Positions 4,468 through 64,000 of a stretch of 64,000 nt of DNA are shown here, in pieces. The notes beneath the pieces were generated by a model. The model saw nothing but the letters and a program-made list of their open reading frames with translations, did not search any database and was not told the origin of the DNA. This DNA comes from Streptomyces bungoensis (lineage in GTDB: Bacteria > Actinomycetota > Actinomycetes > Streptomycetales > Streptomycetaceae). Where the stretch lies: the NCBI RefSeq assembly GCF_001514215.1, contig NZ_KQ948868.1, positions 62,001 to 126,000 on the forward strand, in the 5' to 3' direction. The translations under genes were made by a program, and so were the position numbers. Numbering within the stretch: the first letter of the stretch is position 1; each line of letters begins with the position of its first letter.

Positions 4468-4578
4468 ATGCGCCCTGCGTGCATGTCCCCCCAGGCAGGA
4501 ATCCCACCCACGGCGAAGGACATCACGCTCAGTGCATCTGCTCAATCTCGGCATCCTCGCGCACGTCGACGCGGGTAA
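4468..4578 (+). CDS. Possible leader peptide (36 aa) overlapping the ribosomal protection gene start
   Basis: An ATG at 4468 sits 7 bp after a strong ribosome binding site (GAGAGGAG, 4453-4460). It opens a 36-codon frame, MRPACMSPQAGIPPTAKDIT and onward, that ends at TAA 4576-4578. Its last 15 codons overlap the first codons of the tet-like gene, which has only a weak site (GAAGGA) before its GTG. A short, well-initiated ORF overlapping a ribosome-protection gene suggests regulation by leader translation, as is known for tet(M) leaders. No homologue is recognised, so coding status is uncertain. Confidence 0.4.
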   Translation: MRPACMSPQAGIPPTAKDITLSASAQSRHPRARRRG

Positions 4579-14183: not shown

Positions 14184-14727
14184 CCCCGTCCCCCGCTGAC
14201 GACTCCGACCGGTCAGGCACCCCCGTCGCATCGCCCCGAACCCGTGGCAACGCCTCTGAACAGCGCGTTCCGGCCGATTTCCGGCACGGTTCACCCGCTC
14301 GCCCAAGGTGCCGCCCCGGCCTCGCGGAGACGTCCTGACCGGTGCTGCACGGCGGGCGCCGTGCCTCCGCCCGGCTGGGGGACGGCGTGGTACCGCTGAA
14401 GAAGCGCGGGGTACGGCGCCGGACCCCGGTGGCGGCGACAGGACGGGGCGACGTCACGGTGCCGGGGCCGGCGGCTGACCGTCGAATGGACGGGCGGCGG
14501 GGCTCGGACGGCGGCGAGCGGGCCGACGTCACCTGCGACCCCGCGGACCCGGCGGTGGCGCTGCTCGTCCGACCGTGCGCGGTAGTTCACCGTTGCGTCA
14601 CAGCCTGGCCGGAACCACAACCATCGGCCCGCCGCACTGGTCTAGTAGGCCGAGAGCGCGGGAACCGCGCAGGGAACGCCCCGGGGCATGCCCCAGGGGA
14701 CCGAGGGGACAAGGGGAAGAGGCCGAC
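14184..14727. other. Intergenic region, about 540 bp, no gene seen
   Basis: Between the HTH remnant and the L,D-transpeptidase. Open frames here have no domain, weak starts and no family resemblance. The last 150 bp are a little less GC-rich and must contain the transpeptidase promoter, but no confident -35/-10 pair was identified. It may be further eroded remains of the truncated HTH gene's neighbourhood. Confidence 0.5.
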
Positions 14728-15423
14728 ATGGGGGACATACGCAGAAGGGGTGCCGTCGCCCTGGGCGTCACCGGACTGGTGGCACCGCTCACGCTCGCCA
14801 TCACCGCGGCACCGGCCCAGGCCGCGAGCTGCACCACGCAGGCGGGCCCGTACCAGAAGCAGGTGGAGAAGTTCCTCGGCCGCCCGGTCGACGGAAGGCA
14901 GTCCTCCACCGACTGCAAGGCCATCCAGGCCTTCCAGAACAAGCACGGCATCACGCCCGCCATCGGCTACGCCGGCCCCGTCACCTGGGGCGTGATGGAC
15001 CTGATGAACAAGCAGAAGGCCGTGGGGGACAACCCCAACAAGGCCGGCAAGTGCCCGGTGAACAAGGGCCGCATCGCCTGCGTGAACCTCACGCTCCAGC
15101 TCAGCTGGATCCAGGACGGCAGCAGGCTCGTGTACGGGCCGGTCCCCGTGCGCACCGGCCGCAAGGGGTACGTCACCCGCACCGGCCTGAAGAAGATCTA
15201 CTGGCGGGACATCGACCACGTCTCGAACATCTACGACGTGCCGATGCCCTACAGCCAGTTCTTCGACGGCGGTCAGGCCTTCCACTCGGTGAACCTCAGC
15301 ATGTGGAACCCGCCGGGATCCCACGGCTGCGTGAACATGACGACGACGACCGCCAAGAAGTACTGGTCGCTGCTGAAGACGGGGGACGACGTCTTCGTCT
15401 ACGGCCGCAAGCCCGGCACCTGA
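14728..15423 (+). CDS. Secreted L,D-transpeptidase (YkuD) with peptidoglycan-binding domain
   Basis: 231 residues. A signal peptide (positive MGDIRRRG, hydrophobic core, AQA cleavage near residue 32) precedes a PG_binding_1-like domain (about 36-95; KAIQAFQNKHGITP and GPVTWGVMDLM). The catalytic YkuD domain (about 115-231) carries the HGCVNM motif with nucleophile Cys201 (SHGCVNM) and the upstream conserved His (FHSVN, about 186). It makes 3-3 crosslinks in peptidoglycan outside the membrane. The ATG follows AAGGGGAAGAGG. It appears monocistronic and ends at a hairpin (15428-15447). Confidence 0.9.
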   Translation: MGDIRRRGAVALGVTGLVAPLTLAITAAPAQAASCTTQAGPYQKQVEKFLGRPVDGRQSSTDCKAIQAFQNKHGITPAIGYAGPVTWGVMDLMNKQKAVGDNPNKAGKCPVNKGRIACVNLTLQLSWIQDGSRLVYGPVPVRTGRKGYVTRTGLKKIYWRDIDHVSNIYDVPMPYSQFFDGGQAFHSVNLSMWNPPGSHGCVNMTTTTAKKYWSLLKTGDDVFVYGRKPGT

Positions 15424-25810: not shown

Positions 25811-28210
25811 CTACTCGCCGTCCACCGGCATCCGGATGTCCAGCAGGCACACGTCGTCCCGCCGCCGCTGGCCGAGCATCGTGTCGAGCAGCGCGTCCAG
25901 GGACCCGGAGGGGCCGCAGGTGTGCACCCGGACCGCCTCGGCCAGCCGGGCGAAGCCCATGTCCAGGCCCTCGCCGAGGCGCTCCATGAGACCGTCGGTG
26001 TACATCAGCAGCCGGTCTCCGGGCTCCAGGCGGATCTCGGCCGACTCGTAGACCGGGTTCGCGCTCGCGCCGAGCAGCATGCCGCCGGGGCGATCCAGGA
26101 AGCGCACCTTGCCGTCGCGCACCAGCAGCGGCGGCGGGTGGCCGGCCTGCGCCCAGGTCAGGACGCGGCTGCCGGGGTGGTAGCGGGCGAGGACCATGGT
26201 GGCGGTGGTCCGGCTGTCCCTGGAGTGCAGCAGCAGCCGGTTCAGCCGGCCGAGGGCCCCGGTCAGCGACGAGCCGGTGCTGACCATGCCCTTGGCGGTG
26301 AACCGGAGCTGGGCCATCGTCGCCACGGCGCCGATGCCGTGGCCCGCCACGTCGCCGACCACGAACAGTGCGTCGTCGTTGGGCAGTTCGACGGCGCTGA
26401 ACCAGTCGCCGCCGACGTGGATGCCCGACTGCGCGGGCAGGTAGGCGACGTCGACGCACAGCCCGGCCAGCCGCACCGGCTCGCTGGGCAGCGGCAGCAG
26501 CGCGTGCTGCAGCCGGGCGGCCAGCGCCCGCTCGGCCTGCAGGATCCCGCGCTGCAGCAGCACCGCTCGCTCGCTCTCCACCAGGGCCAGTTCGGCACTG
26601 CGCTGGGGGGTGAGGTCCTGGACGAAGCCGTGCACCTCGGCGGGGGTGCCGTCCGGCTCGGTGACGGCTTCGGCGACGAACCTGAGGTGCCGTACGTCTT
26701 CGGCGGCGCGGACCCGGAACGGCACGTCGAACGGCCGGCCGTGCCGGACCAGGTCGGCGATGGCGTGGGCCAGGGTGCCCGCGTCCTCCGGCAGCGCCAG
26801 GTCCGGCAGCTCCTCCAGGCGGACCGGCCCGCGGGCGGGGGCGCGGCCGAGCACCGCGTACGCCTGCGCGGACCAGGCGATCTCCTGGGTGACCAGGTTC
26901 CAGTTGGCCCAGCCGAGATTGCCCAGGCGCTGCACGTCGGACAGCCGCTGCTCCTGGCGCTCCACGGGGTCGTGCCGCAGCCAGGTCACCAGCAGCCCGG
27001 CGCCGAGCGGGGCGGCCCGCACCGAGTAGGTGGCGGTGACGGGCACCCCGTCGGCGACGTCCTGGTAGGCGAACGGCTCGCTCTCGAAGGGCACCTTGGT
27101 GGTGAGCGCGTCCAGGTAGCCGCGCCACAGCGGCTCACCCGCGACGGACGGATAACTCTCGAGGATGTGCTTGCCGAGCATGTCCCGTCCGGCCCGGCCG
27201 AACACGTCGACCGCCTCGGGGGTGGCCGCGTCGATGCGGTAGTCCTCCACCTCGCCGGAGCCGGAGAGCAGCGGGGTCAGCAGCACCGTCGCACCCGGCA
27301 GGGCGTCGAGCACCGCCTGCACGGTCTGCGCGACACGGTCCCCGGTACCCTCCTGCGGGGCGTCGAAGGCGCGCAGCCGGCCCGCGCACAGCCGGGCGAC
27401 GGCCCGCAGCAGCTCCCGCTGGCGCCGCGGGAACGGGCCCGCCTGGCGGCGCATCACCCCGAGCGCGACGCCGGGGGAGCCACCGGGCGGAACGGGCAGC
27501 CAGGCCCGCGACGGCCACCGCTCGGGCCGGCCCCCGATCAGCAGGTGCCCCTGACGTTCCCGGGACACGTCCTCGAGCCAGCACGCCTCCCTGGTCTCCA
27601 GGATGTCCAGCGGCGTGACGCCGCTCAGGGGCGGCACCCGGCGCCACTGCGCGGCGAGGGGCGCGTCCAGACCGGCGTGCCCCATCAGTTCGAGCCCGCC
27701 CTCGGGCAGCCGCCCGTAGAAGATCACCGCGTCGGCGCCCACTTCGGGCCCGAGGTGCTCCAGCAGGCATCCGGCCAGCTCCTGCGGGGAACGCACCCCG
27801 ACCAGGTCCCGGCCGACGCGGGCGAGGACCTCGGCGATGTCCCCGGTGCCGGCGGGCGCGCTCTCCCAGACGGCGGCGGAAGGGGCGTCCGCCGCCCCGG
27901 GCGGTTCCAGCCCGGCCGTCGCGGCGGCCTGCTGCTCCGGCGGCAGCAGGGCGCCCAGGGCGAGCCAGCACTCCTCCAGCAGCGTGCGGCCCCCTGCCTT
28001 GGCGCGCTGCACCAGCTCCTCGTGCGCGCTGTCGGGGGAACAACCGGTCGTCGCCATCAGGGCGCCCTTGGCGCGCTCCAGTACGGCCGTGACCGCGGCC
28101 GCGTTCCGCAGCCGCTCCATCTCGGCCCGCTGCCGGGCCACGACCTTGGCCAGCGCCGTCACGTCGGTGCCGGTGCCGGGGTCCACGGAGGGCGCGGGCT
28201 CGCTCGTCAC
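25811..28210 (-). CDS. ANTAR-GAF-PAS-PP2C (SpoIIE) multidomain phosphatase
   Basis: 799 residues. An N-terminal coiled segment and ANTAR-like domain (about 30-80: AVLERAKGALMATTGCSPDS, AHEELVQRAKAGGRTLLEEC) is followed by a GAF domain (about 120-270), a first PAS-like region (about 285-400), a second PAS (about 410-525, WANWNLVTQEIAWSAQAYAV) and a PP2C/SpoIIE phosphatase (about 560-795; GGDWFSAVELPNDDALFVVG, YTDGLMERLGEGLDMG). It should dephosphorylate anti-anti-sigma factors in response to a small-molecule or redox input. The GTG at 28210 is uncertain: no clear ribosome site. ANTAR domains bind RNA hairpins, so this may join RNA and phosphatase signalling. Confidence 0.85.
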   Translation of the reverse strand: MTSEPAPSVDPGTGTDVTALAKVVARQRAEMERLRNAAAVTAVLERAKGALMATTGCSPDSAHEELVQRAKAGGRTLLEECWLALGALLPPEQQAAATAGLEPPGAADAPSAAVWESAPAGTGDIAEVLARVGRDLVGVRSPQELAGCLLEHLGPEVGADAVIFYGRLPEGGLELMGHAGLDAPLAAQWRRVPPLSGVTPLDILETREACWLEDVSRERQGHLLIGGRPERWPSRAWLPVPPGGSPGVALGVMRRQAGPFPRRQRELLRAVARLCAGRLRAFDAPQEGTGDRVAQTVQAVLDALPGATVLLTPLLSGSGEVEDYRIDAATPEAVDVFGRAGRDMLGKHILESYPSVAGEPLWRGYLDALTTKVPFESEPFAYQDVADGVPVTATYSVRAAPLGAGLLVTWLRHDPVERQEQRLSDVQRLGNLGWANWNLVTQEIAWSAQAYAVLGRAPARGPVRLEELPDLALPEDAGTLAHAIADLVRHGRPFDVPFRVRAAEDVRHLRFVAEAVTEPDGTPAEVHGFVQDLTPQRSAELALVESERAVLLQRGILQAERALAARLQHALLPLPSEPVRLAGLCVDVAYLPAQSGIHVGGDWFSAVELPNDDALFVVGDVAGHGIGAVATMAQLRFTAKGMVSTGSSLTGALGRLNRLLLHSRDSRTTATMVLARYHPGSRVLTWAQAGHPPPLLVRDGKVRFLDRPGGMLLGASANPVYESAEIRLEPGDRLLMYTDGLMERLGEGLDMGFARLAEAVRVHTCGPSGSLDALLDTMLGQRRRDDVCLLDIRMPVDGE

Positions 28211-28531
28211 GCGACGAGCATCGCACAAGTGGGCCGCTCCGATCACTCGTCTGCCCGGCCGTCTTCCCACCTGGACGCCTCGGCCGGGGGTGGCGCCCAC
28301 GGGTTCACGGGGCTCCGGGGGATACGACCGAAACGACCAGGGCTTGCCCAGAGGGAGTCCGGGCCCGGCCCTCGCGGAAAGGGCACGGAGACTCCGTGAT
28401 CGGCTCGCGGTCGGTGAACTGTCGGTAAGAATGCGGGGAGAGGGCCCTCGGGGCTGCCCGGGGAAGGCGCGTCCGGTTTCCGGGCCGCCTTCGGGTGCCT
28501 GGGCCGCCGCGGGGGCGCGTACGGGAAGGCG

Positions 28532-41351: not shown

Positions 41352-42092
41352 ATGACTCAGCTCGGTCTGCCCGACACCATCCAGGCCTGCCTCTTCGACC
41401 TCGACGGGGTCGTCACCAAGACGGCCGTCGTGCACGCGGCCGCCTGGAAGGAGACGTTCGACGCGTTCCTGCGCGAGCACGAGGGGCCCCAGGCACGGCC
41501 GTTCGACGAGGTCGCCGACTACGACGAGTACGTCGACGGCCGCCCGCGCGCCGACGGGGTCCGCGCCTTCCTCGACTCGCGCGGCATCCACCTGCCCGAG
41601 GGCGGTCCCGACGACCCGCCGGAAGCCGCCACCGTGCACGGCCTCGGAAACCGCAAGAACGTCCTGCTGCTGGAGAAGATCCGGTCCGGCGGCGTGGAGG
41701 CCTACGAGGGCACCCTGCGCTACCTGGAGGCGGTCCGCGCCGCGGGTCTGCGCACCGCGATCGTCTCCTCCAGCGCCAACTGCCGTGACGTGCTGCGGGC
41801 CGTGGACGCCGAGCACTTCTTCGACGTCCGCATCGACGGCGTCGTCGCCGCCGAGCGGCACCTGCCAGGCAAGCCGCACCCCGACACCTTCCTGGCCGCC
41901 GCCCGGGACCTGGGCGTCGAGGCGGCGCGGGCGGCCGTCTTCGAGGACGCCCTGGCCGGCATGGACGCGGGCCGCGCGGGCGGCTTCGGATACGTCGTCG
42001 GCCTCGACCGGACCGGCCAGGCCGACGCGCTGTACGCGCACGGCGCCAGCGTCGTCGTCAAGGACCTCGCCGAGCTGGGGGGCAAGCGTTGA
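41352..42092 (+). CDS. HAD phosphatase, beta-phosphoglucomutase-like
   Basis: 246 residues. Nucleophile motif CLFDLDGVVTKTAVVHAAAW (Asp16, Asp18), motif II IVSSSANCRDVL, and motif [29 protein letters not shown] segment is typical of the beta-PGM/trehalose-linked group. It probably isomerises beta-glucose-1-phosphate to glucose-6-phosphate, made by the GH65 phosphorylase whose TTG start overlaps its stop. A GTG at 41343 is an alternative start. Divergent from the P-loop kinase (50 bp between). Confidence 0.85.
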   Translation: MTQLGLPDTIQACLFDLDGVVTKTAVVHAAAWKETFDAFLREHEGPQARPFDEVADYDEYVDGRPRADGVRAFLDSRGIHLPEGGPDDPPEAATVHGLGNRKNVLLLEKIRSGGVEAYEGTLRYLEAVRAAGLRTAIVSSSANCRDVLRAVDAEHFFDVRIDGVVAAERHLPGKPHPDTFLAAARDLGVEAARAAVFEDALAGMDAGRAGGFGYVVGLDRTGQADALYAHGASVVVKDLAELGGKR

Positions 42093-44431
42093 TCACCCAC
42101 CGGTCGTACACCGTCGAGCCCTGGGCGGTGCGCGAGACCGCCCTCAACCTCGACGTCCTCGCGCAGAGCGAGTCGGTGTTCGCGCTGTCCAACGGCCACG
42201 TCGGCTGGCGCGGCAACCTGGACGAGGGCGAACCGCACGGCCTGCCCGGCAGCTACCTCAACGGCGTGCACGAGGTGCACCCGCTGCCGTACGCCGAGGC
42301 CGGCTACGGCTACCCGGAGTCCGGGCAGACGGTCATCAACGTCACCAACGGCAAGATCCTCCGACTGCTCGTGGACGACGAGCCGTTCGACCTGCGCTAC
42401 GGCCGGCTCGTCGCCCACGAGCGGGTCCTGGACCTGCGCCGCGGGGTGCTGGAGCGGACCTGCGAGTGGACGTCCCCGGCCGGGTCCACGGTCCGGGTGC
42501 GCTCGACCCGGCTGGTGTCGCTGACCCAGCGGGCGGTCGCGGCCGTCGCGTACGAGGTGGAGGCCGTCGGCAGCCGCAGCCGGGTCGTCATCCAGTCCGA
42601 GCTGGTCGCCAACGAGCAGCTGCCCGGGTCCGACGGCGACCCGCGCGCCGCCGTCGCCCTGGAGTCCCCGCTGGAGCAGGAGGACGCCTTCGCCGCGGGC
42701 AGCCGGCTGCGGCTGGTGCACCGCACCCGGCGCAGCGGCCTCCGGGTCGCCGTGGCCGCCGACCACACGGTCACCGGGCCCGAGCGCACCACCACCCGCA
42801 GCGAGAGCGACCGCGACGTGGCCCGGCTCACCGTCACCTCCGTCCTGGAGCCCGGCCAGACGCTGCGCGTGGAGAAGCTGGTCGCCCACGGCTGGTCCGG
42901 CACCCGGTCGCTGCCCGCGATGGCCGACCAGGTCGACGCCGCCCTCGCCGCCGCCGCGCACGACGGCTGGCAGGGACTGCTCGACGACCAGCGCGCGCAC
43001 CTGGACGACTTCTGGGCCCGCGCCGACGTCGAGGTGGACGGCGACGAGGAGATCCAGCAGGCCGTCCGGTTCGCGCTGTTCCACGTCCTGCAGGCCGGCG
43101 CCCGCGCCGAGCAGCGGGCGATACCCGCCAAGGGGCTCACCGGCTCCGGCTACGACGGGCACGCCTTCTGGGACACCGAGATGTTCGTGCTGCCCGTCCT
43201 CACCCACACCGCCCCCGGCGCCGTCGCCGAGGCGCTGCGCTGGCGGTACAACACGCTGGACGAGGCACGCGAGCGCGCGGCCCAACTCGGCCTCGGCGGG
43301 GCCGCGTTCCCCTGGCGGACCATCGCCGGCCCGGAGGGCTCGGCGTACTGGCCGGCCGGTACCGCGGCCTTCCACGTCAACGCCGACATCGCCGACGCGG
43401 TGGTGCGCTACGTCGAGGCCACGGGCGACACCGCCTTCGAGCGCGAGGTGGGGGTGGAGCTGCTGGTGGAGACGGCCCGGCTGTGGCGCTCGCTCGGCCA
43501 TCACGACCACCGCGGCGTCTTCCACATCGACGGCGTCACCGGCCCCGACGAGTACAGCGCGGTCGCCGACGACAACACGTACACCAACCTCATGGCCCGG
43601 GCCAACCTGCTGGCGGCGGCCGACGCCGTCGAGCGCCACCCGCGCCGGGCGGAGCAGCTCGGCGTGGACGAGGAGGAGAGCGCGGCCTGGCGGGACGCGG
43701 CGGAGGCCATGTTCCTGCCCTACAACCACGAACTCGGCGTGCACGAGCAGCACGCCGGATTCACCCGCTACCAGCGCTGGGACTTCGCCGGCACCCGCCC
43801 CGACCAGTACCCGCTGCTGCTGAACTTCCCGTACTTCGACCTCTACCGCAAGCAGGTCGTCAAGCAGGCCGACCTGGTGCTGGCGATGTACACGTGCGGT
43901 GCGCACTTCGACGACGAGCAGGTCGCCCGCAACTTCGCCTACTACGAGCCGCTGACGGTGCGCGACTCCTCCCTGTCCGCCTGCTGTCAGGCCGTCATCG
44001 CCGCCCAGGCCGGCCATCTGCGGCTCGCCTACCACTACACGGCCGAGGCGGCGCTGATGGACCTGGCGGACCTGGAGCACAACACCCGGGACGGGCTGCA
44101 CATCGCCTCCCTGGCCGGGACCTGGATGGCGCTCGTCGCCGGCTTTGGCGGCATGCGCCGCGACGGCGGGGGCCTGCGCTTCGCCCCGCGCCTGCCGGAG
44201 CGGCTGCGCCGCCTGGCCTTCAACCTCCAGTTCCGGGACCGCCGGCTGAGGGTGGAGATCCACGCGGACAAGGCGTCGTACACCCTGCTCGCCGGGCCGC
44301 CCCTCACCTTCGACCACCACGGGGAGCCGGTGACGGTCGGCACCGACGACCCCGCGGTCCGCGCGATCCCGCGGGCCCCGATCCGCCCGACCCCGGCCCA
44401 GCCGCCGCACCGGGCTCCCCACGGCGGCTGA
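42089..44431 (+). CDS. GH65 glycoside phosphorylase (maltose/trehalose/kojibiose phosphorylase-like)
   Basis: 780 residues, the normal GH65 length. N-terminal beta-sandwich (MITHRSYTVEPWAVRETALN; FALSNGHVGWRGNLDEGEPH), then an (alpha/alpha)6 barrel. The catalytic acid is Glu488 in GVTGPDEYSAV, corresponding to Glu487 of Lactobacillus maltose phosphorylase; the phosphate-site region follows HAFWDTEMFVLP. It splits an alpha-disaccharide with phosphate to beta-glucose-1-phosphate and glucose. The TTG start overlaps the HAD stop (TTGA), an uncommon start codon in tight coupling. Exact disaccharide specificity cannot be read. Confidence 0.9.
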   Translation: MITHRSYTVEPWAVRETALNLDVLAQSESVFALSNGHVGWRGNLDEGEPHGLPGSYLNGVHEVHPLPYAEAGYGYPESGQTVINVTNGKILRLLVDDEPFDLRYGRLVAHERVLDLRRGVLERTCEWTSPAGSTVRVRSTRLVSLTQRAVAAVAYEVEAVGSRSRVVIQSELVANEQLPGSDGDPRAAVALESPLEQEDAFAAGSRLRLVHRTRRSGLRVAVAADHTVTGPERTTTRSESDRDVARLTVTSVLEPGQTLRVEKLVAHGWSGTRSLPAMADQVDAALAAAAHDGWQGLLDDQRAHLDDFWARADVEVDGDEEIQQAVRFALFHVLQAGARAEQRAIPAKGLTGSGYDGHAFWDTEMFVLPVLTHTAPGAVAEALRWRYNTLDEARERAAQLGLGGAAFPWRTIAGPEGSAYWPAGTAAFHVNADIADAVVRYVEATGDTAFEREVGVELLVETARLWRSLGHHDHRGVFHIDGVTGPDEYSAVADDNTYTNLMARANLLAAADAVERHPRRAEQLGVDEEESAAWRDAAEAMFLPYNHELGVHEQHAGFTRYQRWDFAGTRPDQYPLLLNFPYFDLYRKQVVKQADLVLAMYTCGAHFDDEQVARNFAYYEPLTVRDSSLSACCQAVIAAQAGHLRLAYHYTAEAALMDLADLEHNTRDGLHIASLAGTWMALVAGFGGMRRDGGGLRFAPRLPERLRRLAFNLQFRDRRLRVEIHADKASYTLLAGPPLTFDHHGEPVTVGTDDPAVRAIPRAPIRPTPAQPPHRAPHGG

Positions 44432-44464: not shown

Positions 44465-45358
44465 TCAGTGCAGGGCGCCGGACAGCAGGGCGAGCAGGTC
44501 GGACGTGGCGTCGGCGGCGAGGAGGGCCGGGAGGGCGCCCAGGGCGAGGACGGCCGCCGCCGCGGGCCACAGCCGGGGCGGCGGGCCGGCCAGCAGGGCC
44601 GCGATGCGCAGGGTGACGGAGCGGTCGGTGAAGTTCAGGGCGCAGGCCGGGCCGGAGCGGCCCGCGGTGAGGGCGGCGCGGGCCAGCGCGCGAGCGGTGG
44701 TCCGGCGGTCGCCGACGGCGGCCGCCGCCTGCTCGTCGGCCCAGCGCTCCACCAGGAACACGGCCGCCGACCGCACCGGACCCAGCAGCGGGTTGGCCGC
44801 CGCGGCGAGCGTGGCCGCCGTCACCAGCGCGCCGTGCCGGTGCGCCAGGTGCGCGCGCTCGTGGGCCAGCAGGACCCGCCGTTCGGCCGGCTCCAGGGCG
44901 CTCAGCATCGCGGACGTGACCAGGATCCGGCCCGGCCGGCCCGGAATCGCGAACGCCCGCGGCACCTGGGAGGCGGCGACGACGAGCTCCGTGTCCGCCG
45001 GCTGTCCCGCGCACAGCCGGCGCAGCGCCCGCCGGGTGCGCCGCTCGGCGCGCACGGCCCGGTACACCCGCCAGGCGACGACCGCCAGCGCCGCGGCGGC
45101 AGCGACACCGACCGCCTCCGGTACCGGGTCCACCAGCCGGTGCCCGTCCTCCCGGGCCTCGCGCACGACCGGCGGCGCGTCGCCGAGCAGCGCGGTGGCC
45201 AGCAGGACCAGCGACCAGGTCGTGGCCACCGCGGTCAGGACGGCCGCCGAGGTCAGCACGCGGGCGGCGAGCGCCGGGCCGACCCGGCCGACGACCACCG
45301 GCGCGACGACGGACAGCAGCAGCGACACGACCAGCGGGGTGTACACGTCGATCCTCAT
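44465..45358 (-). CDS. M56-family (BlaR1-like) membrane metalloprotease
   Basis: 297 residues. Transmembrane segments near 8-30, 35-58 and 82-98, then the zinc protease motif LLAHERAHLAHRHG (HExxH, His166 and His170) with the third ligand in VERWADEQAA (Glu204), and two C-terminal helices. Unlike BlaR1 it has no penicillin-binding sensor domain, so its signal is unknown. M56 proteins cleave or destabilise the partner BlaI repressor. The start overlaps the BlaI stop (ATGA at 45355-45358), a coupled pair. Confidence 0.88.
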   Translation of the reverse strand: MRIDVYTPLVVSLLLSVVAPVVVGRVGPALAARVLTSAAVLTAVATTWSLVLLATALLGDAPPVVREAREDGHRLVDPVPEAVGVAAAAALAVVAWRVYRAVRAERRTRRALRRLCAGQPADTELVVAASQVPRAFAIPGRPGRILVTSAMLSALEPAERRVLLAHERAHLAHRHGALVTAATLAAAANPLLGPVRSAAVFLVERWADEQAAAAVGDRRTTARALARAALTAGRSGPACALNFTDRSVTLRIAALLAGPPPRLWPAAAAVLALGALPALLAADATSDLLALLSGALH

Positions 45359-45738
45359 GCGCCGCCCCCGGCGAGCAGCGCGCGCAGGGCCCGCTCCTCC
45401 TCGGGGCTGAGACCGGTGACGAACTGCTGGAGCGCCGCGATCGGATCCGGTCCCCGGTCCAGGGCCTCGTGCATCGCCTCGGCGGTCAGCTCGGCCGCGT
45501 TCTTCGCCGGACGGTAGGCACCGCGCCGCCCGTCGGCGTCGCGCAGCACCAGCCCCTTGTCGTACAGGCGCTTGAGGATGGTGTGCACCGTGTTGTAGGC
45601 GAGGCCGCCGCCGATGTCGGCCTGGATCTCGGCCGGGGTCAGCGGCCGATCGGTGGCCCAGAGGGCGGCCAGCACCTCGCTCTCCAGCGCTCCCGCGCTG
45701 CGCCGCTCCGCCCTGCCGCGGGACTCCGTGCCAGCCAT
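45355..45738 (-). CDS. BlaI/MecI/CopY-family repressor
   Basis: 127 residues. Winged helix (about 17-80; EVLAALWATDRPLTPAEIQA, NTVHTILKRLYDKGLVLRDA) and a C-terminal dimerisation region with the AEAMHEALDRGPDPIAALQQ tail where BlaI proteins are cleaved. First gene of the BlaI-M56 pair. Three palindromes of type CCCTAC-N5-GTAGGG lie in the 167-bp divergent promoter, one 8 bp upstream of this start codon, so it should repress itself and the divergent envelope genes. Confidence 0.9.
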   Translation of the reverse strand: MAGTESRGRAERRSAGALESEVLAALWATDRPLTPAEIQADIGGGLAYNTVHTILKRLYDKGLVLRDADGRRGAYRPAKNAAELTAEAMHEALDRGPDPIAALQQFVTGLSPEEERALRALLAGGGA

Positions 45739-45745
45739 ACGCCAA

Positions 45746-45762
45746 CCTTACAGTGCGTAGGG
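45746..45762. promoter_or_regulatory. BlaI-type operator site 1
   Basis: CCTTACAGTGCGTAGGG: an imperfect copy of the palindrome found at sites 2 and 3 (one mismatch in the left arm), 8 bp upstream of the blaI start codon. Confidence 0.6.
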
Positions 45763-45848
45763 TCTCTCACCGGATGGCCCTGTCCGCCCGGCAGACCGAG
45801 GTGATCCGGGTTAGTTTGGCCGTGCTTTCCCGGAACCTCCGGCCCCAG

Positions 45849-45865
45849 CCCTACGTCTTGTAGGG
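45849..45865. promoter_or_regulatory. BlaI-type operator site 2
   Basis: CCCTAC-GTCTT-GTAGGG, perfect 6-bp arms. Centre at 45857, 26 bp from the centre of site 3. Confidence 0.7.
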
Positions 45866-45874
45866 TGACGAACG

Positions 45875-45891
45875 CCCTACAACTCGTAGGG
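45875..45891. promoter_or_regulatory. BlaI-type operator site 3
   Basis: CCCTAC-AACTC-GTAGGG, perfect 6-bp arms, ending 15 bp before the ATG of the GT-C-like membrane protein and next to its ribosome site AGAGAGG. Confidence 0.7.
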
Positions 45892-45905
45892 GCAGAGAGG
45901 TGGTC

Positions 45906-47393
45906 ATGGCCGGCAGTACCCGAGTCACAGCCGTCGCGGCCCGGCGTGAGCGCTCCCGCCGGGTCTTCCCCGCCCCGGCGCGGCCTCGAGGGAGCCGGCC
46001 GCTCGCGGCCGTCGCCGCCGCCTTCACCCTGGCCCAACTGCTCCTCGTCCGGCCCGGCATGGGTCTCGGCTGGGACGAGACCGTGTACGTCAGCCAGGTC
46101 AGCGGACACGCGCCCGCCGCCTTCTTCAGCGCACCCCGCGCCCGCGGCGTCTCCCTGCTCGTGGCCCCCGTCGCCGCCTGGTCGTCGTCCACGGCACTGC
46201 TGCGCGTCTACCTCGCCGTCCTGTCCGGCCTCGCCCTGTACCTGGCCCTGCGCACCTGGCGGGGGCAGTTCCCGACGCGCGTGCTCGCCCTGGCCGGCGC
46301 CCTGTTCGCCTCCCTGTGGGTGACCCTGTTCTACGGCCCTCAGGCCATGCCCAACTACTGGGTGGCCGTCGGCGCCCTCGCCGCCGCCGGCTGCTTCCTG
46401 CGCGCCCGCGCCGCCCGCTCCGACCGGGCCGCCCTGTGGGGCCTGGCCGCGAGCGCCGCGCTGATGGCCTGGATGCGGCCCACCGATGCCGTCTTCGCCA
46501 CTCTGCCGCTCCTCGCCCTCGGCCTGGCCCGCCGCACCTGGCGGCCGACGCTCGTCCTGCTCGGCGGGCTCGCCGCCGGTGCGGCCGAGTGGGTCGTCGA
46601 GGCGTACACCGCCTACGGCGGTCTCGCCCGCCGGCTGCACGACGGCTCGGAGATCCAGGGCGGCCTCGGCTTCCACGTCGCCGTCACCGACCAGCTGCGC
46701 AGCCTCGGCGGCCGGGCCCTGTGCCGGCCGTGCACCGGAGACCTGCCCGATCCGAGCGTGACCCTCTGGTGGTTCGTCCTGCCGCTGCTCGCCGCAGTCG
46801 GCCTCGTGATCGCCGTCCGGGCCCGGCACACGCTGCCGACGCTGCTCGCGCTCGCCTGCGCGGCGACGGCCGGCTTCCCCTACCTGTTCATGATCGGCTA
46901 CGCGGCGCCCCGCTTCCTGCTCCCGTACTACGCCCTGCTGGCCCTGCCGGTCGCCGCCGCGCTCGTCCACCTGACCACCGCGCCCGCCCGGCCCTGGCGG
47001 CAGGTCGCCGTGACCCTCGTCGTGCTCGGGCTCGCCGCCCACCTCGCCGTCCAGCTCGCCGTCCTGACCCGCACCGTGGAGCGCACCACCGCCGCACACC
47101 GCGCCTGGTCCCGCACCGCGGCCACCCTGCACCGGGTCGGCGTCACACCGCCCTGTCTGCTCACCGGGCACGAGGCCATCCCGGTGGCCTTCTACGCCGG
47201 CTGTTCCTCGGCCGCCGCTTCCGGGCACAACGCCAACAGCACGGTAGCGGCCATCGCCGGCACCGCACGCCGCACCCCGGTGGCCGTCCTGGTCGCCCAC
47301 GGCTCCCGGCCACCCGGGTACGCCGCCCACTGGCCGTCCGTGCCGCTCGACGGACTGCGCCTCTACTACGCCGTACCCGAGGCCCGTTCGTGA
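45906..47393 (+). CDS. Polytopic membrane glycosyltransferase-like protein (GT-C fold)
   Basis: 495 residues with roughly ten to twelve transmembrane helices. The first periplasmic loop holds GLGWDETVYVSQVSG, the DE-type motif expected of GT-C (PMT/ArnT/GT39/GT83) transferases, and a large C-terminal loop contains CLLTGHEAIPVAFYAGCSS. It probably moves a lipid-linked sugar to an acceptor outside the membrane. ATG at 45906 follows AGAGAGG. It lies directly behind BlaI operators 2 and 3 and is followed 34 bp later by a UPF0104 protein. Confidence 0.75.
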   Translation: MAGSTRVTAVAARRERSRRVFPAPARPRGSRPLAAVAAAFTLAQLLLVRPGMGLGWDETVYVSQVSGHAPAAFFSAPRARGVSLLVAPVAAWSSSTALLRVYLAVLSGLALYLALRTWRGQFPTRVLALAGALFASLWVTLFYGPQAMPNYWVAVGALAAAGCFLRARAARSDRAALWGLAASAALMAWMRPTDAVFATLPLLALGLARRTWRPTLVLLGGLAAGAAEWVVEAYTAYGGLARRLHDGSEIQGGLGFHVAVTDQLRSLGGRALCRPCTGDLPDPSVTLWWFVLPLLAAVGLVIAVRARHTLPTLLALACAATAGFPYLFMIGYAAPRFLLPYYALLALPVAAALVHLTTAPARPWRQVAVTLVVLGLAAHLAVQLAVLTRTVERTTAAHRAWSRTAATLHRVGVTPPCLLTGHEAIPVAFYAGCSSAAASGHNANSTVAAIAGTARRTPVAVLVAHGSRPPGYAAHWPSVPLDGLRLYYAVPEARS

Positions 47394-49600: not shown

Positions 49601-50263
49601 TCATCCGCGCGCCCCCTTGGCCGCCCGACGAGAACGCAGCACCTCGGCGCCCAGCGGGATCAGGGACACGGCGACGATCAGCGCGACCAGCGGCAGCAGA
49701 TAGGTGTCGACGTTCGGGATCGCGGACCCGAGCGCGTACCCGGCCAGGGTGAGGCCGAGGCTCCACACCAGGCCGCCCACCGTCTGCCAGAGCGTGAACG
49801 CGCGGGCGGGCACCCCGAGCGCGCCCGCCAGCGGGTTCAGCACCGTCCGCACCACCGGCACGAAGCGGGCGAGGACGATCGCCTTGGCGTGCCCGTACCG
49901 CTCCAGCAGCTCCTCGGCGCGGGCGGCCCCCTCGTGCAGCCGGGCCGACCGGCTGCGGGCCAGCAGTGCGCCGCCCGCCCTGCGCCCCAGCAGATAGCCG
50001 CACTGCGCGCCCGCGAGCGCACCGACGGCCGCCGCCACCAGCAGCGGACCCAGGGAGAGGTGCACGCTCCGGCCGGACGTGCCCGTGCACAGCAGACCCG
50101 CCGTGAACAACAGGGAGTCGCCGGGCAGGAAGAAGCCGATCAGCAGGCCCGTCTCGGCGAACAGCACCACCCCGACCCCGAGCACGCCGAACGCGGCCAG
50201 CAGTGAGTGGGCGTCGAGCACGTTGACCGCGAGCTGCGACGACAGGTCGGAGGGAGTGGCCAT
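49601..50263 (-). CDS. DedA family membrane protein
   Basis: 220 residues with four to six transmembrane helices. The family segments are FAETGLLIGFFLPGDSLLFT near residue 40 and YGHAKAIVLARFVPVVRTVL then NPLAGALGVPARAF near 130. DedA proteins recycle undecaprenyl phosphate or phospholipids across the membrane, which matches the PAP2 phosphatase next to it. ATG at 50263 after AAAGGG; the frame up to 50299 is an alternative. A palindrome CTACA-CATT-TGTAG lies 45 bp upstream. Confidence 0.87.
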   Translation of the reverse strand: MATPSDLSSQLAVNVLDAHSLLAAFGVLGVGVVLFAETGLLIGFFLPGDSLLFTAGLLCTGTSGRSVHLSLGPLLVAAAVGALAGAQCGYLLGRRAGGALLARSRSARLHEGAARAEELLERYGHAKAIVLARFVPVVRTVLNPLAGALGVPARAFTLWQTVGGLVWSLGLTLAGYALGSAIPNVDTYLLPLVALIVAVSLIPLGAEVLRSRRAAKGARG

Positions 50264-50588
50264 GGCCGCACGCCCTTTCCTTCGGTGGCTTCCGAACACA
50301 AGTGTGACTACACATTTGTAGACGCATTAGTGGACCATGAACGACCGACAAGCCCGCACCGTTCCCGGGCTTTGCCTCGACATTGCCGTTTCATGGCCGG
50401 CCGAATGCACTTGACGTGGACGGCGGGCCTCGGCGGGGAGCGGCCGAGCAGGTGGTGTCTCTCCGGTCGTGATCACGGCGGGGCGCGGCCCGGTTCGCGA
50501 CCTGGTCTGATGGGAACTTGCGACAGAGGCGGCCCCGTGCGGGCAACCCCGGCAACCCGTGCGACCCGCGCAGAGAGGACGAGTACGT
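50264..50588. other. Intergenic region, 325 bp
   Basis: Divergent promoter region between dedA and gadB. Besides the palindrome at 50308-50321 it shows no recognised element; the gadB-proximal part ends with GAGAGGACGAGTACGT before the start codon. Confidence 0.5.
50308..50321. promoter_or_regulatory. Palindrome upstream of DedA gene
   Basis: CTACACATTTGTAG: 5-bp perfect arms with a 4-bp spacer, in a locally AT-rich stretch. It shares TAC...GTA with the BlaI sites but has a 6-bp rather than 5-bp interval, so BlaI binding is doubtful; another repressor may act here. Confidence 0.4.
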
Positions 50589-59675: not shown

Positions 59676-62414
59676 TCAGGGCAGCGGCTGCTCCGCCCAG
59701 ATGATCTTGCCCTGAGCGGTGTAGCGGGTGCCCCAGCGCTCCGCGAGCTGCGCGACCAGGAACAGCCCCCGCCCGCCCTCGTCGGTGCTCGCCGCGTACC
59801 GCAGGTGCGGGGAGGTGGTGCTGCGGTCGGAGACCTCGCAGATCAGCGTCCGGTCGCGCAGCAGCCGCACCCCGATCGGGCCGCGCCCGTAGCGGATCGC
59901 GTTCGTGACCAGCTCGCTCAGCACCAGCTCCGTCGTGAACGACAGCTCCTCCAGACCCCAGTCGGCGAGCTGCCGGGTGACCGAGGCCCGCACCTGCGAG
60001 ACGGCCGCCGGATCGGACGGCACCTGCCACTCGGCGACCCGGTCGGGCCCGAGGACGCGGGTGCGGGCCACGATCAGCGCCACGTCGTCCCTCGGCCGGT
60101 TCGGGAGGTGGTCGAGCACGGTCCGGCAGGTGTCCTCCGGCGAGGCGCCGGGAGCGCGTCTCAGGGCGTCGCGCAGCAGGTCCAGGCCCACGTCGATGTC
60201 CCGGTCCCGGTCCTCCACCAGCCCGTCGGTGTACAGCACCAGCCGGCTGCCCTCCGCCAGCTCCAGGTCGGCGGTCTCGAACGGCAGCCCGCCCAGGCCC
60301 AGCGGCGGCCCCGCCGGGACGTCCGGGAACTCCACGCTGCCGTCCGGGCGCACCAGCGCGGGCGGCGGATGACCGGCCCGGGCCACGGTGCAGCGCCGGG
60401 CCACCGGGTCGTACACCGCGTACAGACAGGTCGCGCCGGTGACCGCGGCGGCGCCGTCCGCCGGGGTCTCGTCCTGGTCGATCCGGCCCACCAGCTCGTC
60501 CAGCAGGCCGAGCAGCTCGTCCGGCGGCAGGTCCAGCGCGGAGAAGTTGTGCACCGCCGTGCGCAGCCGGCCCATCGTCGCCGCCGCGTGCAGCCCGTGC
60601 CCCACGACGTCCCCCACCACCAGCGCCACCCGGGCGCCCGACAGCGGCAGCACGTCGAACCAGTCGCCGCCCACCCCCGACTGCGCCGGCAGGTAGCGGT
60701 AGGCGATGTCCAGCGCCCCCTGCTCGGGCAGCGAGCGCGGCAGCAGGCTGCGCTGCAGGGTCACCGCCATGCTGTGCTCGCGGGTGTAGCGGCGCGCGTT
60801 GTCGATGGACACGGCGGCCCGCGCGACCAGCTCCTCGGCGAGGGCCAGCTCCTCGCTGTCGAACGGCTGCGGCTTCTGCGAGCGCCAGAAGTGCGCCAGG
60901 CCGAGCACCAGGCTGCCCGCCCGCAGCGGCACGGTGATCAGCGAGTGGATGCCGTACGCGAGGACCCGCTCGGTGCGCTCCGGGTCCTGCGCCCGCCAGC
61001 CGGGCGCCTCGCGCAGCCGGGGCTCCACCACCGACTGCCCGGTCGTCAGGCTGCGCGCCTGCGGGGAGGCCGCCACGAACCGGATCCGCTCACCCACCGG
61101 ATACAGCGGGGCGTCCTTGCGGACGCCGGTGAACGCGGCCCGGCGCAGCGAGGTCCCCGGCTTCGGCTCCTCCCCGTTCAGCACCGCGTCGAACAAGTCG
61201 ACGCTTGCGAAGTCCGCGAACCGGGGCACCGCCAGCTCGACGAGCTCCTGCGCCGTGCGGGCCACGTCCAGGCTGGTGCCGATGCCCACCCCGGCGTCGT
61301 ACAGCATGTTCAGCCGCTCGCGCGCCACCTCCGCACGGCCGGACAGCGCGCGCAGCTCCGTGGAGTCGCGCAGCGTGGTCACGCTGCCCGGCGGGCCGCC
61401 GCGCACGCCGGTGGGGCGCTGGTTGATGGCCAGCAGCCGGTCCTTGACCAGGTGCACCTCGTCCGTCGCCACCCGCCCGGAGGCCAGCAGCCCGGCCGTC
61501 TCGTCGTCCAGCCCCAGCTCCAGCACGTGCCGCTGCTCGGCGTCCGCGGGCAGCTCCAGCAGGCGCTGCGCCTCGTCGTTGGCGAGCAGCAGCCGGCCGT
61601 CGCCGCCGACGATGAGCACACCCTCCCGCACGGCGTGCAGCACCGCGTCGTGGTGCTCGTACATGCGCGTCATCTCGGACGGACCGAGGCCGTGCGTCTG
61701 GCGCAGCAGCCGTCTGCTGACCAGCGCCGTGCCCGCGGTGGCCAGCGCGAGCGCCGCCGCTGCCGCCGCGAGCAGCAGCGGCAGCTGCTGGTCGGCGGCC
61801 CCGCCCACGTGCGCGGTGGTGATGCCGGCCGACACCAGGCCCACCACCTTGCCGCCGGAGTCCTTCACCGGCACCACGACCTGTACGAGCGGGCCGATCG
61901 TCCCGTTGACCTCCTCGGTGACGGTGCCCCCGGCCACGGCGGGCCCGATGGTGCCCACGAACCTCTTGCCGATGCGGTCCGGATTGGGGTGGGTGTAGCG
62001 GATGCCCTCGGTGTTCATCACGACGACGAAGTCCACGCCGGTCGCCGTGCGGGTGGCCTCCGCGCGCGGCTGCAGGACCGCCGTCGGATCGGGGGAGCGC
62101 AGCGCGGCCGCCGTCCCCGGCGCGTTGGCGAACGACTCGGCGACGGCGAGGGAGCGGTTGCGCGCCTCCAGCTTGCTGTCGTGGCGCACCTGCAGCACCT
62201 GGGCCACCACCGCCGACACGACCAGCAGCAGCACGATCACGACTTGGAGGACGAAGACCTGCCCGGCCACACTGCGCCGGGTCACCGCCGACCGCAGCAC
62301 CCCGGCCCGGCCACCGCCCGCGCCGCCCGCGTCCCGGCGCGGCCCCTGGGGTGCGCGCGGGCGCCCGGGTGAACGGGGCGGCCGCGTGTCGGGCCGGCCG
62401 GGCAGTCGGACCAT
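59676..62414 (-). CDS. Membrane sensor phosphatase: Cache-PAS-GAF-PP2C-HATPase
   Basis: 912 residues. N-terminal transmembrane helix (about 50-72), an extracytoplasmic single-Cache-like region (NRSLAVAESFANAPGTAAAL to VVPVKDSGGKVVGLVSAGIT), a second TM helix (about 208-230), PAS (about 255-330), GAF (about 370-530), SpoIIE phosphatase (about 555-760; GGDWFDVLPLSGARVALVVG, YTDGLVEDRDRDIDVG) and an anti-sigma-type HATPase (about 785-905; ELVLSELVTNAIRYG, DEGGRGLFLVAQL). It combines a phosphatase and an ATPase of the RsbW type, to control a partner-switching sigma-factor circuit. ATG at 62414 with no strong ribosome site. Confidence 0.88.
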   Translation of the reverse strand: MVRLPGRPDTRPPRSPGRPRAPQGPRRDAGGAGGGRAGVLRSAVTRRSVAGQVFVLQVVIVLLLVVSAVVAQVLQVRHDSKLEARNRSLAVAESFANAPGTAAALRSPDPTAVLQPRAEATRTATGVDFVVVMNTEGIRYTHPNPDRIGKRFVGTIGPAVAGGTVTEEVNGTIGPLVQVVVPVKDSGGKVVGLVSAGITTAHVGGAADQQLPLLLAAAAAALALATAGTALVSRRLLRQTHGLGPSEMTRMYEHHDAVLHAVREGVLIVGGDGRLLLANDEAQRLLELPADAEQRHVLELGLDDETAGLLASGRVATDEVHLVKDRLLAINQRPTGVRGGPPGSVTTLRDSTELRALSGRAEVARERLNMLYDAGVGIGTSLDVARTAQELVELAVPRFADFASVDLFDAVLNGEEPKPGTSLRRAAFTGVRKDAPLYPVGERIRFVAASPQARSLTTGQSVVEPRLREAPGWRAQDPERTERVLAYGIHSLITVPLRAGSLVLGLAHFWRSQKPQPFDSEELALAEELVARAAVSIDNARRYTREHSMAVTLQRSLLPRSLPEQGALDIAYRYLPAQSGVGGDWFDVLPLSGARVALVVGDVVGHGLHAAATMGRLRTAVHNFSALDLPPDELLGLLDELVGRIDQDETPADGAAAVTGATCLYAVYDPVARRCTVARAGHPPPALVRPDGSVEFPDVPAGPPLGLGGLPFETADLELAEGSRLVLYTDGLVEDRDRDIDVGLDLLRDALRRAPGASPEDTCRTVLDHLPNRPRDDVALIVARTRVLGPDRVAEWQVPSDPAAVSQVRASVTRQLADWGLEELSFTTELVLSELVTNAIRYGRGPIGVRLLRDRTLICEVSDRSTTSPHLRYAASTDEGGRGLFLVAQLAERWGTRYTAQGKIIWAEQPLP

Positions 62415-62495: not shown

Positions 62496-64000
62496 TCACC
62501 GGGGGTGCGGGGTGCGCCGGGTGGCGAGCAGCAGCGCCACGTCGTCGGGCCGGTGGGCGGTGTACCGCGCGGTCGCGGTGAGCCGGTCGGCGACCCCGGC
62601 CAGCGAGCGCCCGCCCCGCCGCCCGGCCGCCGCCCCCGCCTTCGCCAACGCCAGCCGCAGCGCGTTGATGCCGTCGTCTATGTCGGTGCCGGGCCGCTCC
62701 ACCAGACCGTCCGTGTAGAGGGCGAGGATCGCGTCCGGCTCCAGCTCCAGCTCGGTCACCGGGTACTGCGCCTGCGGATCGACACCGAGGACGACACCAC
62801 CGGGGATGTCCAGCACCCGCGTGGTGCCGTCGGGGTGGCGCAGCAGCGGCGGCGGATGCCCGGCCCGGGCGACCTGGGCGCACCCGGTGGCCGGGTCGAG
62901 GCGGAGGTAGCAGCAGCTGGCGAACTGGCCCGGGTCCAGGTCGATCAGCAGCCGGTTGGTGCCGCTCATCACCTCGTCGGGCGCGTGGTCGCCGAGCGCG
63001 AAGGCCCGCACGGCGCTGCGCAGCTGCCCCATGGTCGCCGCCGCCTGCACCCCGTGTCCCTGCACGTCGCCGATGACCAGCGCCAGCCCGTTCCCGGCGT
63101 CCACCACGTCGTACCAGTCGCCGCCCACGTCCAGGCCCTGGGTGCCCGGCAGATAGCGGCCCGCCGTCTCCACCCCGGGATGGACCGACAGCCGCCGCGG
63201 CAGCAGGGCCTGCTGGAGGCCGCGGGCCAGGGCCGCCTCGCTGTCGTAGCGCTGCGCCCGCTCCATCGCGTGGGCGATGAGCCCGGCGAGCGCGGTGAGG
63301 ACCGTGCGTTCCTGGCTGCTGAAGCTGCGCTCGCGGTCGAAGCCGAGGATGCAGGAGCCGATCGGCCGGCCCGAGGAGATCAGCGGCAGGAAGGCCCGGG
63401 CGCCCTCGTCGGCGTCCAGCGGGAGCCCCGGGTAGGTGGCCCCCAGCTGCGTCATCGACTCGAAGAAGAGGGGGCGCCCGGTGGTGAGGGTCTCCACGCC
63501 CGGTATGCGCGCGTCGAGGCCGACGCCGTCGAAGGGGGCGAGGAAGCCCTGCGGGAAGCCGGTCTCCCAGGCCAGGTAGAGGTGCCGGTCCTGCAGCAGG
63601 TAGATGGCCAGGCGGCGGCCGCCGAACGCGGGCAGCAGCTCCTGCATGACGACCGCCGACACCTGCCGCGCGGTCACCGCGTCCGTCAGCGCGATGGCGA
63701 GGGCGATGGGCCGGTACAGCGGCGCCAGCGCGTGCTCGCCGGCCATCGTCTCCTCCAGGGCGTGCGCACCGGCGTGCGCGGGCACTTCGTGGGCCGGACC
63801 GGCCGGGGCGTCGACACGGCTGGCCGGGACCAGGGTGCAGGTCAGCACGTCGGGCCCCGGATGCACCGACAGGGCGAGCCAGTCGCCGTCACCGGCCGGC
63901 TCACGGCCGCCGGCCGGCCGCCGCACGTGCAGGTGGACCGGCTCCTGGGACAGCAGCACACTGCGCAGGTGGTCGTCGCACGGCGGCCCGGTCAGCCACG
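62496..64000 (-). CDS. GAF-PP2C (SpoIIE) phosphatase, 5' end outside window
   Basis: At least 501 codons; the frame is open through 64000, with the GTG at 63959 only an internal candidate. A GAF domain ([40 protein letters not shown]) precedes the SpoIIE domain ([40 protein letters not shown]) at the C-terminus. The upstream codons [20 protein letters not shown] look coding, implying another N-terminal domain. Lies 81 bp upstream of the membrane phosphatase gene, same direction. Cytosolic, soluble; likely acts on anti-anti-sigma factors. Confidence 0.85.

Follow-up and report, generated by a model that had tools for sequence, protein, structure and literature searches.

A BlaI/M56 locus of Streptomyces bungoensis shares a palindromic operator word with genes for a putative split MprF and a predicted GT-C-fold enzyme

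We analyzed a 64,000-nucleotide stretch of the Streptomyces bungoensis genome (contig NZ_KQ948868.1, positions 62,001 to 126,000; hereafter the window), in which the gene for a BlaI/MecI-family repressor, blaI, and the gene for an M56 (BlaR1-like) membrane metalloprotease lie divergent from two membrane protein genes, with three putative operators between them (Table 1). The start of the M56 gene and the stop of blaI share 4 bp, and the divergent pair encodes a predicted GT-C-fold glycosyltransferase followed by an LPG_synthase_TM protein. BlaI matched the Penicillinase_R winged-helix family PF03965 (76 bits, cut-off 22.6), and a profile built from 8 BlaI orthologs gave 2g9w as its sole PDB sequence match (E 6.2e-13), which we take to be Rv1846c of Mycobacterium tuberculosis. 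A first-pass annotation of the window had proposed that this BlaI/M56 pair controls envelope genes instead of a beta-lactamase. Its claim that no beta-lactamase or penicillin-binding protein gene is present agrees with our Pfam scan, which found no such family in 18 window proteins, namely the M56 protein and 17 of the 37 predicted genes, the other 20 being unscanned.

The same annotation had counted three CCCTAC-N5-GTAGGG sites. Two of these (45849 and 45875) are exact, but the blaI-proximal one at 45746 carries one mismatch. This mismatch is not decay, because the deviating base is the same A in 60/60 distinct blaI-proximal sites. Read on the minus strand, the proximal operator ends in GTAAGG, and its AAGG is placed as the blaI Shine-Dalgarno sequence, 7 bases before the ATG, a placement suggesting that the operator doubles as the blaI ribosome-binding site. 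A promoter scan of 45700-45950 returned no sigma-70-type site. The arrangement resembles the bla divergon of Bacillus licheniformis and Staphylococcus aureus (BlaI-BlaR1-BlaP/BlaZ), which likewise combines BlaI and an M56 protease in one operon with a divergent target, has three operators between blaI-R1 and the target in B. licheniformis according to the excerpted text of PMC3305447, and uses half-sites with a TAC/GTA core according to that of PMC4549145. Unlike the bla divergon, the palindromes here have a centre of 5 bases and CCC/GGG flanks, the M56 protein lacks a penicillin sensor, the divergent target is the predicted GT-C gene in place of a beta-lactamase or PBP2a gene, and further targets would lie on another contig. 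Because the layout equals that of the bla divergon, the operators between the two operons are most naturally read as sites at which BlaI would repress both its own operon and the divergent one. BlaI/MecI regulators characteristically have palindromic operators at their own and their target promoters, and conserved putative sites occupy both positions here.

The proteins encoded at the locus were assigned from family profiles and predicted structures. The GT-C protein had no Pfam match, and a PDB profile search with it found no relative, only four chance-level matches. Foldseek placed its AlphaFold2 model (predicted local distance difference test score, pLDDT, 75) closest to ArnT (5f15, E 7.7e-6), and the top rows of the VIA comparison were all GT-C enzymes (Pmt4, ALG12, AftA, OST and ArnT, Z 16-19). 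The likeness to ArnT and other GT-C glycosyltransferases thus lies in the predicted fold, whereas the structural alignments reach only 7-18% identity. The motif GWDE (55-58), including D57-E58, is invariant in 27/27 sequences, and the model combines the GT-C fold with an acidic residue in the first outer loop, a region (50-95) predicted at pLDDT below 50. The first-pass description of a GT-C-like membrane protein is therefore backed by the predicted fold, and the UPF0104 protein named after it turned out to be LPG_synthase_TM, PF03706, at 96 bits. This protein aligns to residues 68-297 of the NCBIfam bifunctional MprF model NF033480 (E 5.1e-15), that is, to its flippase-type part; a PDB sequence search with it found no relative.

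For the M56 protein, Pfam gave M48 at 42.8 bits (cut-off 20.3) and M56 at 20.7 bits, below the cut-off of 31. Its zinc motifs HERAH (166-170) and ERWADE (204-209) are invariant in 25/25 aligned sequences. All top five VIA rows for its model (pLDDT 74) were S. aureus BlaR1 with Z 7.0-10.0, the best being 8exs (Z 10.0, root-mean-square deviation 4.2 over 206 residues, model residues 3-247), although a Z of 10 is only moderate for a helical protein and Foldseek alone gave a weak match (E 1.1). A PDB profile search with the M56 protein found no relative. The model is consistent with an HExxH zinc protease in a BlaR1-like membrane frame. The absence of a penicillin sensor, already claimed in the first pass, holds: the protein has 297 amino acids, its last predicted helix spans 264-296, its Pfam matches are M48 and M56 only, and the BlaR1 match covers only the membrane and protease part.

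A genome-wide search for the operator word, proposed in the first pass as a check, led to a second locus. The 8.4 Mb genome contains 3 exact sites, two of them at the blaI locus; the sole other one lies on contig C22, about 29 bp upstream of a gene for an MprF/LysX-type phosphatidylglycerol aminoacyltransferase, which we call LPGS. A 1-mismatch copy lies 462 bp from this exact site, between the genes for u93, a 93-amino-acid membrane protein with two helices by eye and no Pfam match, and an M55 D-aminopeptidase. LPGS has a LysX-type membrane part, lacks the tRNA-synthetase domain, matches PDB 4v36 (E 1.5e-25) and aligns to residues 325-831 of NF033480 (E 9.3e-55). LPGS and LPG_synthase_TM therefore tile MprF, each scoring below the cut-off for the whole fused family; the synthase domain resides in LPGS, and PF03706 is not among the LPGS matches, sitting instead on the separate protein. 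Compared with MprF/LysX, LPGS corresponds to the synthase domain and LPG_synthase_TM to the flippase-type domain, but here the two are genes on different contigs that share one operator word, and LPGS has no lysyl-tRNA synthetase domain.

We asked how far the operator word follows these genes in other genomes. The sample comprised the 80 nearest named BlaI ortholog loci (81-96% identical), of which 79 come from records named Streptomyces and one from a record titled Actinobacteria bacterium OK074; close BlaI orthologs (81-95%) occurred in 7/36 other genomes of the genus. At these loci the proximal operator was kept with at most 2 mismatches in 77/80. When up to 1 mismatch was allowed, a distal operator was present in 46/57 loci where GT-C comes first and in 9/13 where LPG_synthase_TM comes first, and in 0/10 with neither gene. 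Double distal sites were frequent, with a spacing of 24-28 bp in 30/30 neighbouring pairs. The trans site behaved in the same way. Among LPGS ortholog loci, 36/36 (33 distinct, three strains being represented twice) had an exact or 1-mismatch site in the 1200 bp upstream, 30 of them an exact one, and in 31/36 a site lay within 150 bp of the LPGS start. Streptomyces cellostaticus DSM 40189 (L128) has the whole set, namely blaI, M56, GT-C, LPG_synthase_TM, distal sites and an LPGS gene (87%) with its site, whereas S. griseofuscus DSM 40191 (L133) retains the site at LPGS and lacks a distal operator ahead of GT-C. By comparison, 0/24 loci of LPGS paralogs (48-68% identity) had a site even at 2 mismatches, one of these loci being scanned over 450 bp upstream only. 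At least 23 of 37 LPGS-bearing genomes had an exact site within 1500 bp upstream. An exact site occurred in 7/8 BlaI-plus genomes and in 2/14 BlaI-minus genomes (p 1.5e-3), the latter picked by hand among those without a close BlaI ortholog, and a close LPGS ortholog (at least 78%) in 6/8 versus 0/14 (p 3.8e-4).

In five genomes (L236-L240) with GT-C/LPG_synthase_TM away from blaI, an exact site precedes the separate operon (in L237, LPG_synthase_TM lies outside the stretch examined). In two genomes (G104 and, for a second time, G106; L247 and L250) GT-C adjoins LPGS, with the site between them, and in G097 (L249) u93, standing apart from LPGS, still keeps its site. In G099, whose blaI is elsewhere (L202), an exact site precedes GT-C (L244:4901-4917). 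Two species carry an exact site before genes for a TarS-like glycosyltransferase and for a protein with a CDP-glycerol glycerophosphotransferase domain (teichoic-acid polymerase-like). This distribution fits a site tied to the targets rather than to the blaI neighbourhood, and it bears out the first-pass view that the BlaI/M56 pair is connected to envelope genes, in that the operators track GT-C/LPG_synthase_TM and a trans locus exists.

Table 1. Features of the blaI locus, the trans locus and related sites (plain coordinates refer to the window).
Feature	Location	Strand	Basis or remark
BlaI/MecI-family repressor gene blaI, 127 aa (amino acids)	45355..45738	-	PF03965
M56 (BlaR1-like) membrane metalloprotease gene, 297 aa	44465..45358	-	zinc motifs, predicted model
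GT-C-fold membrane glycosyltransferase gene, 495 aa	45906..47393	+	predicted fold
LPG_synthase_TM (MprF flippase-like half) gene, 334 aa	47428..48432	+	PF03706
blaI-proximal operator, CCTTAC-N5-GTAGGG	45746..45762	.	word scan, 1 mismatch
Distal operator 1, CCCTAC-N5-GTAGGG	45849..45865	.	word scan, exact
Distal operator 2, CCCTAC-N5-GTAGGG	45875..45891	.	word scan, exact; 26 bp from operator 1; immediately before GT-C Shine-Dalgarno
LPGS (MprF/LysX-type phosphatidylglycerol aminoacyltransferase) gene, 593 aa	L004:5880-7661	-	PF09924, 346 bits
Teichoic-acid-related putative targets, S. filipinensis (L136, G066)	site L241:5050-5066		exact site
Teichoic-acid-related putative targets, S. naganishii (L194, G095)	site L243:5213-5229		exact site
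M56-less blaI loci	L159, L166, L169, L170, L171, L175, L177, L181, L187, L189, L192, L196, L197, L201, L204, L205
DedA gene	49601-50299	-
CTAC-N6-GTAG word directly upstream of DedA, GACTACACATTTGTAGAC	50306-50323		exact N6 pattern

We consider it fairly probable that the locus works in the manner of the bla divergon, switching a split MprF and an ArnT-fold enzyme, and that it thereby makes envelope modification inducible. From the gene families, the operator positions, their conservation and specificity and the predicted folds, we infer BlaI binding, repression, proteolytic release, a lipid product and a phenotype as follows. BlaI would bind CCCTAC-N5-GTAGGG-type operators and repress its own blaI-M56 operon, the divergent GT-C/LPG_synthase_TM operon and, in trans, LPGS and u93, whose control region is shared with the D-aminopeptidase gene in some strains. 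LPGS, as the synthase half, and LPG_synthase_TM, as the flippase-like half, would form the split MprF. Envelope stress would inactivate BlaI, probably through the sensorless M56 protease in strains that have it, and the derepressed cell would make and expose aminoacylated phosphatidylglycerol together with a sugar transferred by GT-C; this product side would follow from what is known of the MprF and GT-C families. The negative charge of the surface should then fall and tolerance to cationic or lipopeptide antibiotics should rise.

Several observations weigh against this scheme. The genomes compared are related, so that the counts and p values given above do not come from independent cases. Among 50 named BlaI-bearing genomes, 13 lack a close LPGS ortholog (37 have one), and in 5/36 LPGS loci the only site lies far off and may be that of u93 or GT-C. 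With up to 1 mismatch allowed, 11/57 GT-C-first and 4/13 LPG_synthase_TM-first loci had no distal operator; at that threshold the blaI stretch of G011 has no site, and that of G003 has only one with 2 mismatches. Conversely, G009, one of the two BlaI-minus genomes with an exact site, lacks a close BlaI and has that site before GT-C (L078:6051-6067). Being in the GT-C operon, LPG_synthase_TM may serve the GT-C pathway, and M56 does not stand behind blaI in 16/80 loci, yet the proximal operator is kept in 16/16 of these. Finally, a backward control motif outnumbers the word in the S. bungoensis genome at one mismatch (31 versus 15), equals it nearly in the 8 BlaI-plus genomes (14 versus 15 exact) and reaches 56 versus 92 in the 50 genomes. 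With the backward motif roughly as frequent as the word, it is the position of the sites and the BlaI-minus genomes, with 2 sites in 14 (backward motif 8), that make the case, and not raw counts; raw enrichment over the backward control was dropped as evidence because the counts do not separate. The GT-C genes at L078 and L244 adjoin a homolog of the gene at 42089-44431 (GH65-like by eye), with no blaI between.

Within the window, matches with at most 2 mismatches numbered 6 against 2.5 expected, a count reached in 5/100 shuffles, and taken alone this count is weak. Chance is ruled against instead by position, the window's two exact matches and its single 1-mismatch match lying within 146 bp, by conservation in trans and by the paralog control. 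Ten further 1-mismatch places exist in the genome, some of which may be targets, and the sites of G004 (L252), L245 and L246 have no clear regulon gene alongside. Were the operators read by another regulator, or kept only through promoter or ribosome-binding constraints, one might expect the overlap of the proximal operator with the blaI Shine-Dalgarno sequence and the exact sites, one each, in the two exceptional genomes among the 14 without a close BlaI. We regard this as very unlikely. The same palindrome stands at unlinked promoters and before relocated genes, but none of the 24 paralog loci has it, nor does any of the 10 loci without GT-C/LPG_synthase_TM on its distal side; moreover, the half-sites hold the TAC/GTA core of the known BlaI TACA/TGTA motif as given in the excerpt of PMC4549145.

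The regulon could also be real and serve lipid-linked glycans. GT-C folds such as PMT, ArnT, ALG and AftA use polyprenyl donors. A polyprenyl-phosphate donor would then supply the sugar that GT-C attaches to an envelope polymer, LPG_synthase_TM would flip the donor or acceptor, LPGS would be a separate parallel output, and the signal would be lipid-carrier or precursor stress. GT-C stands beside blaI in 57/80 loci and LPG_synthase_TM in 58/80, and the TarS-like and polymerase-like genes carrying the site in two species would suit such a role. We nevertheless judge it unlikely: LPG_synthase_TM occurs next to blaI without GT-C in 13/80 loci, and the site is found at every one of the 36 LPGS ortholog loci. 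The first-pass annotation had named lipid-carrier stress as a possible signal; the aminoacyl-phosphatidylglycerol synthase in trans speaks more for membrane charge than for the lipid carrier.

How BlaI would be released is a further question on which the loci differ. M56 directly follows blaI in 64/80 loci. In the 16 M56-less genomes the best M56 match was 40-52% identical, compared with 71-86% in 6/6 control genomes. Draft assemblies may miss genes, but it is unlikely that 16 losses of the same gene beside a present blaI are such misses. M56 as a universal sensor is weakened because these 16 loci lack it, and the loss therefore calls for a paralogous M56 acting in trans or for another release of BlaI, for example by a peptidoglycan fragment, an effect seen in vitro with B. 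licheniformis BlaI (PMC3305447, excerpt). In the latter case BlaI would come off in response to a ligand in the cytoplasm, for instance a peptidoglycan dipeptide, and M56 would be an accessory lost in some lineages. The proximal operators kept in the M56-less genomes agree with this, as do the D-aminopeptidase gene at 13/36 LPGS loci (flanks of 1500 bp) and, in the excerpt of PMC3305447, the loosening of BlaI/MecI from DNA in vitro by a peptidoglycan dipeptide at ~2 mM. Set against it are the 64 loci that keep M56 in place, its invariant zinc motif and the paralogous M56 that could act from elsewhere in the genome, and we hold release by ligand instead of M56 to be rather improbable.

Precedents exist for individual parts of the proposed switch. 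M. tuberculosis BlaI (Rv1846c) and BlaR (Rv1845c) are alike in combining an actinobacterial BlaI, a BlaR without sensor domain and several unlinked targets; the excerpted text of PMC5473688 describes this sensorless BlaR in mycobacteria and gives blaC, ATP synthase and cytochrome bd as BlaI targets, and that of PMC12565901 adds the Rv1303 and Rv2151c promoters. The targets named in these excerpts include none of the lipid genes found in the present regulon. In S. coelicolor sigmaE controls the MprF-like gene SCO3397, and the mutant is reported to be vancomycin- and bacitracin-sensitive (PMC6767563, excerpt), so that genes of this kind form part of the defence against envelope stress in Streptomyces; the envelope-stress control is alike, but it runs through sigmaE there and would run through BlaI-type operators here. 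An S. aureus blaI mutant is more cathelicidin-sensitive with surface charge unchanged (PMC4549145, excerpt), and therefore the mechanism is not the one proposed here. We recognized no publication on this BlaI regulon among titles and abstract openings, a search that left subscription journals mostly outside, and nothing listed in it connected BlaI with mprF-type genes.

A bolder proposal, which we put forward only tentatively and hold to be doubtful, is that some Streptomyces have turned the penicillinase switch into an inducible switch of membrane charge. A single operator word would join in trans the split MprF halves, the ArnT-fold glycosyltransferase, the two-helix protein and, in single species, teichoic-acid genes, and in M56-less lineages the repressor itself would sense an envelope-derived signal. 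If the switch is real, BlaI-type control extends to tolerance of a second class of envelope-active antibiotics, the cationic peptides and lipopeptides, in antibiotic-producing bacteria, and the result suggests that in Streptomyces MprF can function as two co-regulated halves encoded apart. With few promoters and one palindrome, it would also be a simple system for asking what a sensorless BlaR-type protease detects, with the natural M56-less strains as a contrast.

The first-pass annotation had also placed PAP2 and DedA genes nearby. Both are present, but as regulon members they were rejected, since no CCCTAC-N5-GTAGGG site lies near either; DedA has another word, CTAC-N6-GTAG. The exact N6 pattern occurs in the genome at the DedA site, twice at a paralogous BlaI-M56 pair on contig C1 (L017) and once more on C22, and the C1 pair faces a DedA gene 82% identical to that of the window. 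At one mismatch, the N6 pattern was not enriched among the matches listed (65 and 72 versus 56 and 53 for the backward pattern), and therefore only the four exact places were used. The N6 word hints at a second BlaI regulon that includes DedA genes, and the operators read by the two BlaI proteins appear to differ in spacing.

Elsewhere in the window we noted an EF-G-like GTPase gene (4532-6520) whose product by eye resembles tetracycline ribosomal-protection proteins, an L,D-transpeptidase (YkuD) gene (14575-15423) and three SpoIIE-domain genes (25811-28300, 59676-62414 and 62496-63959).

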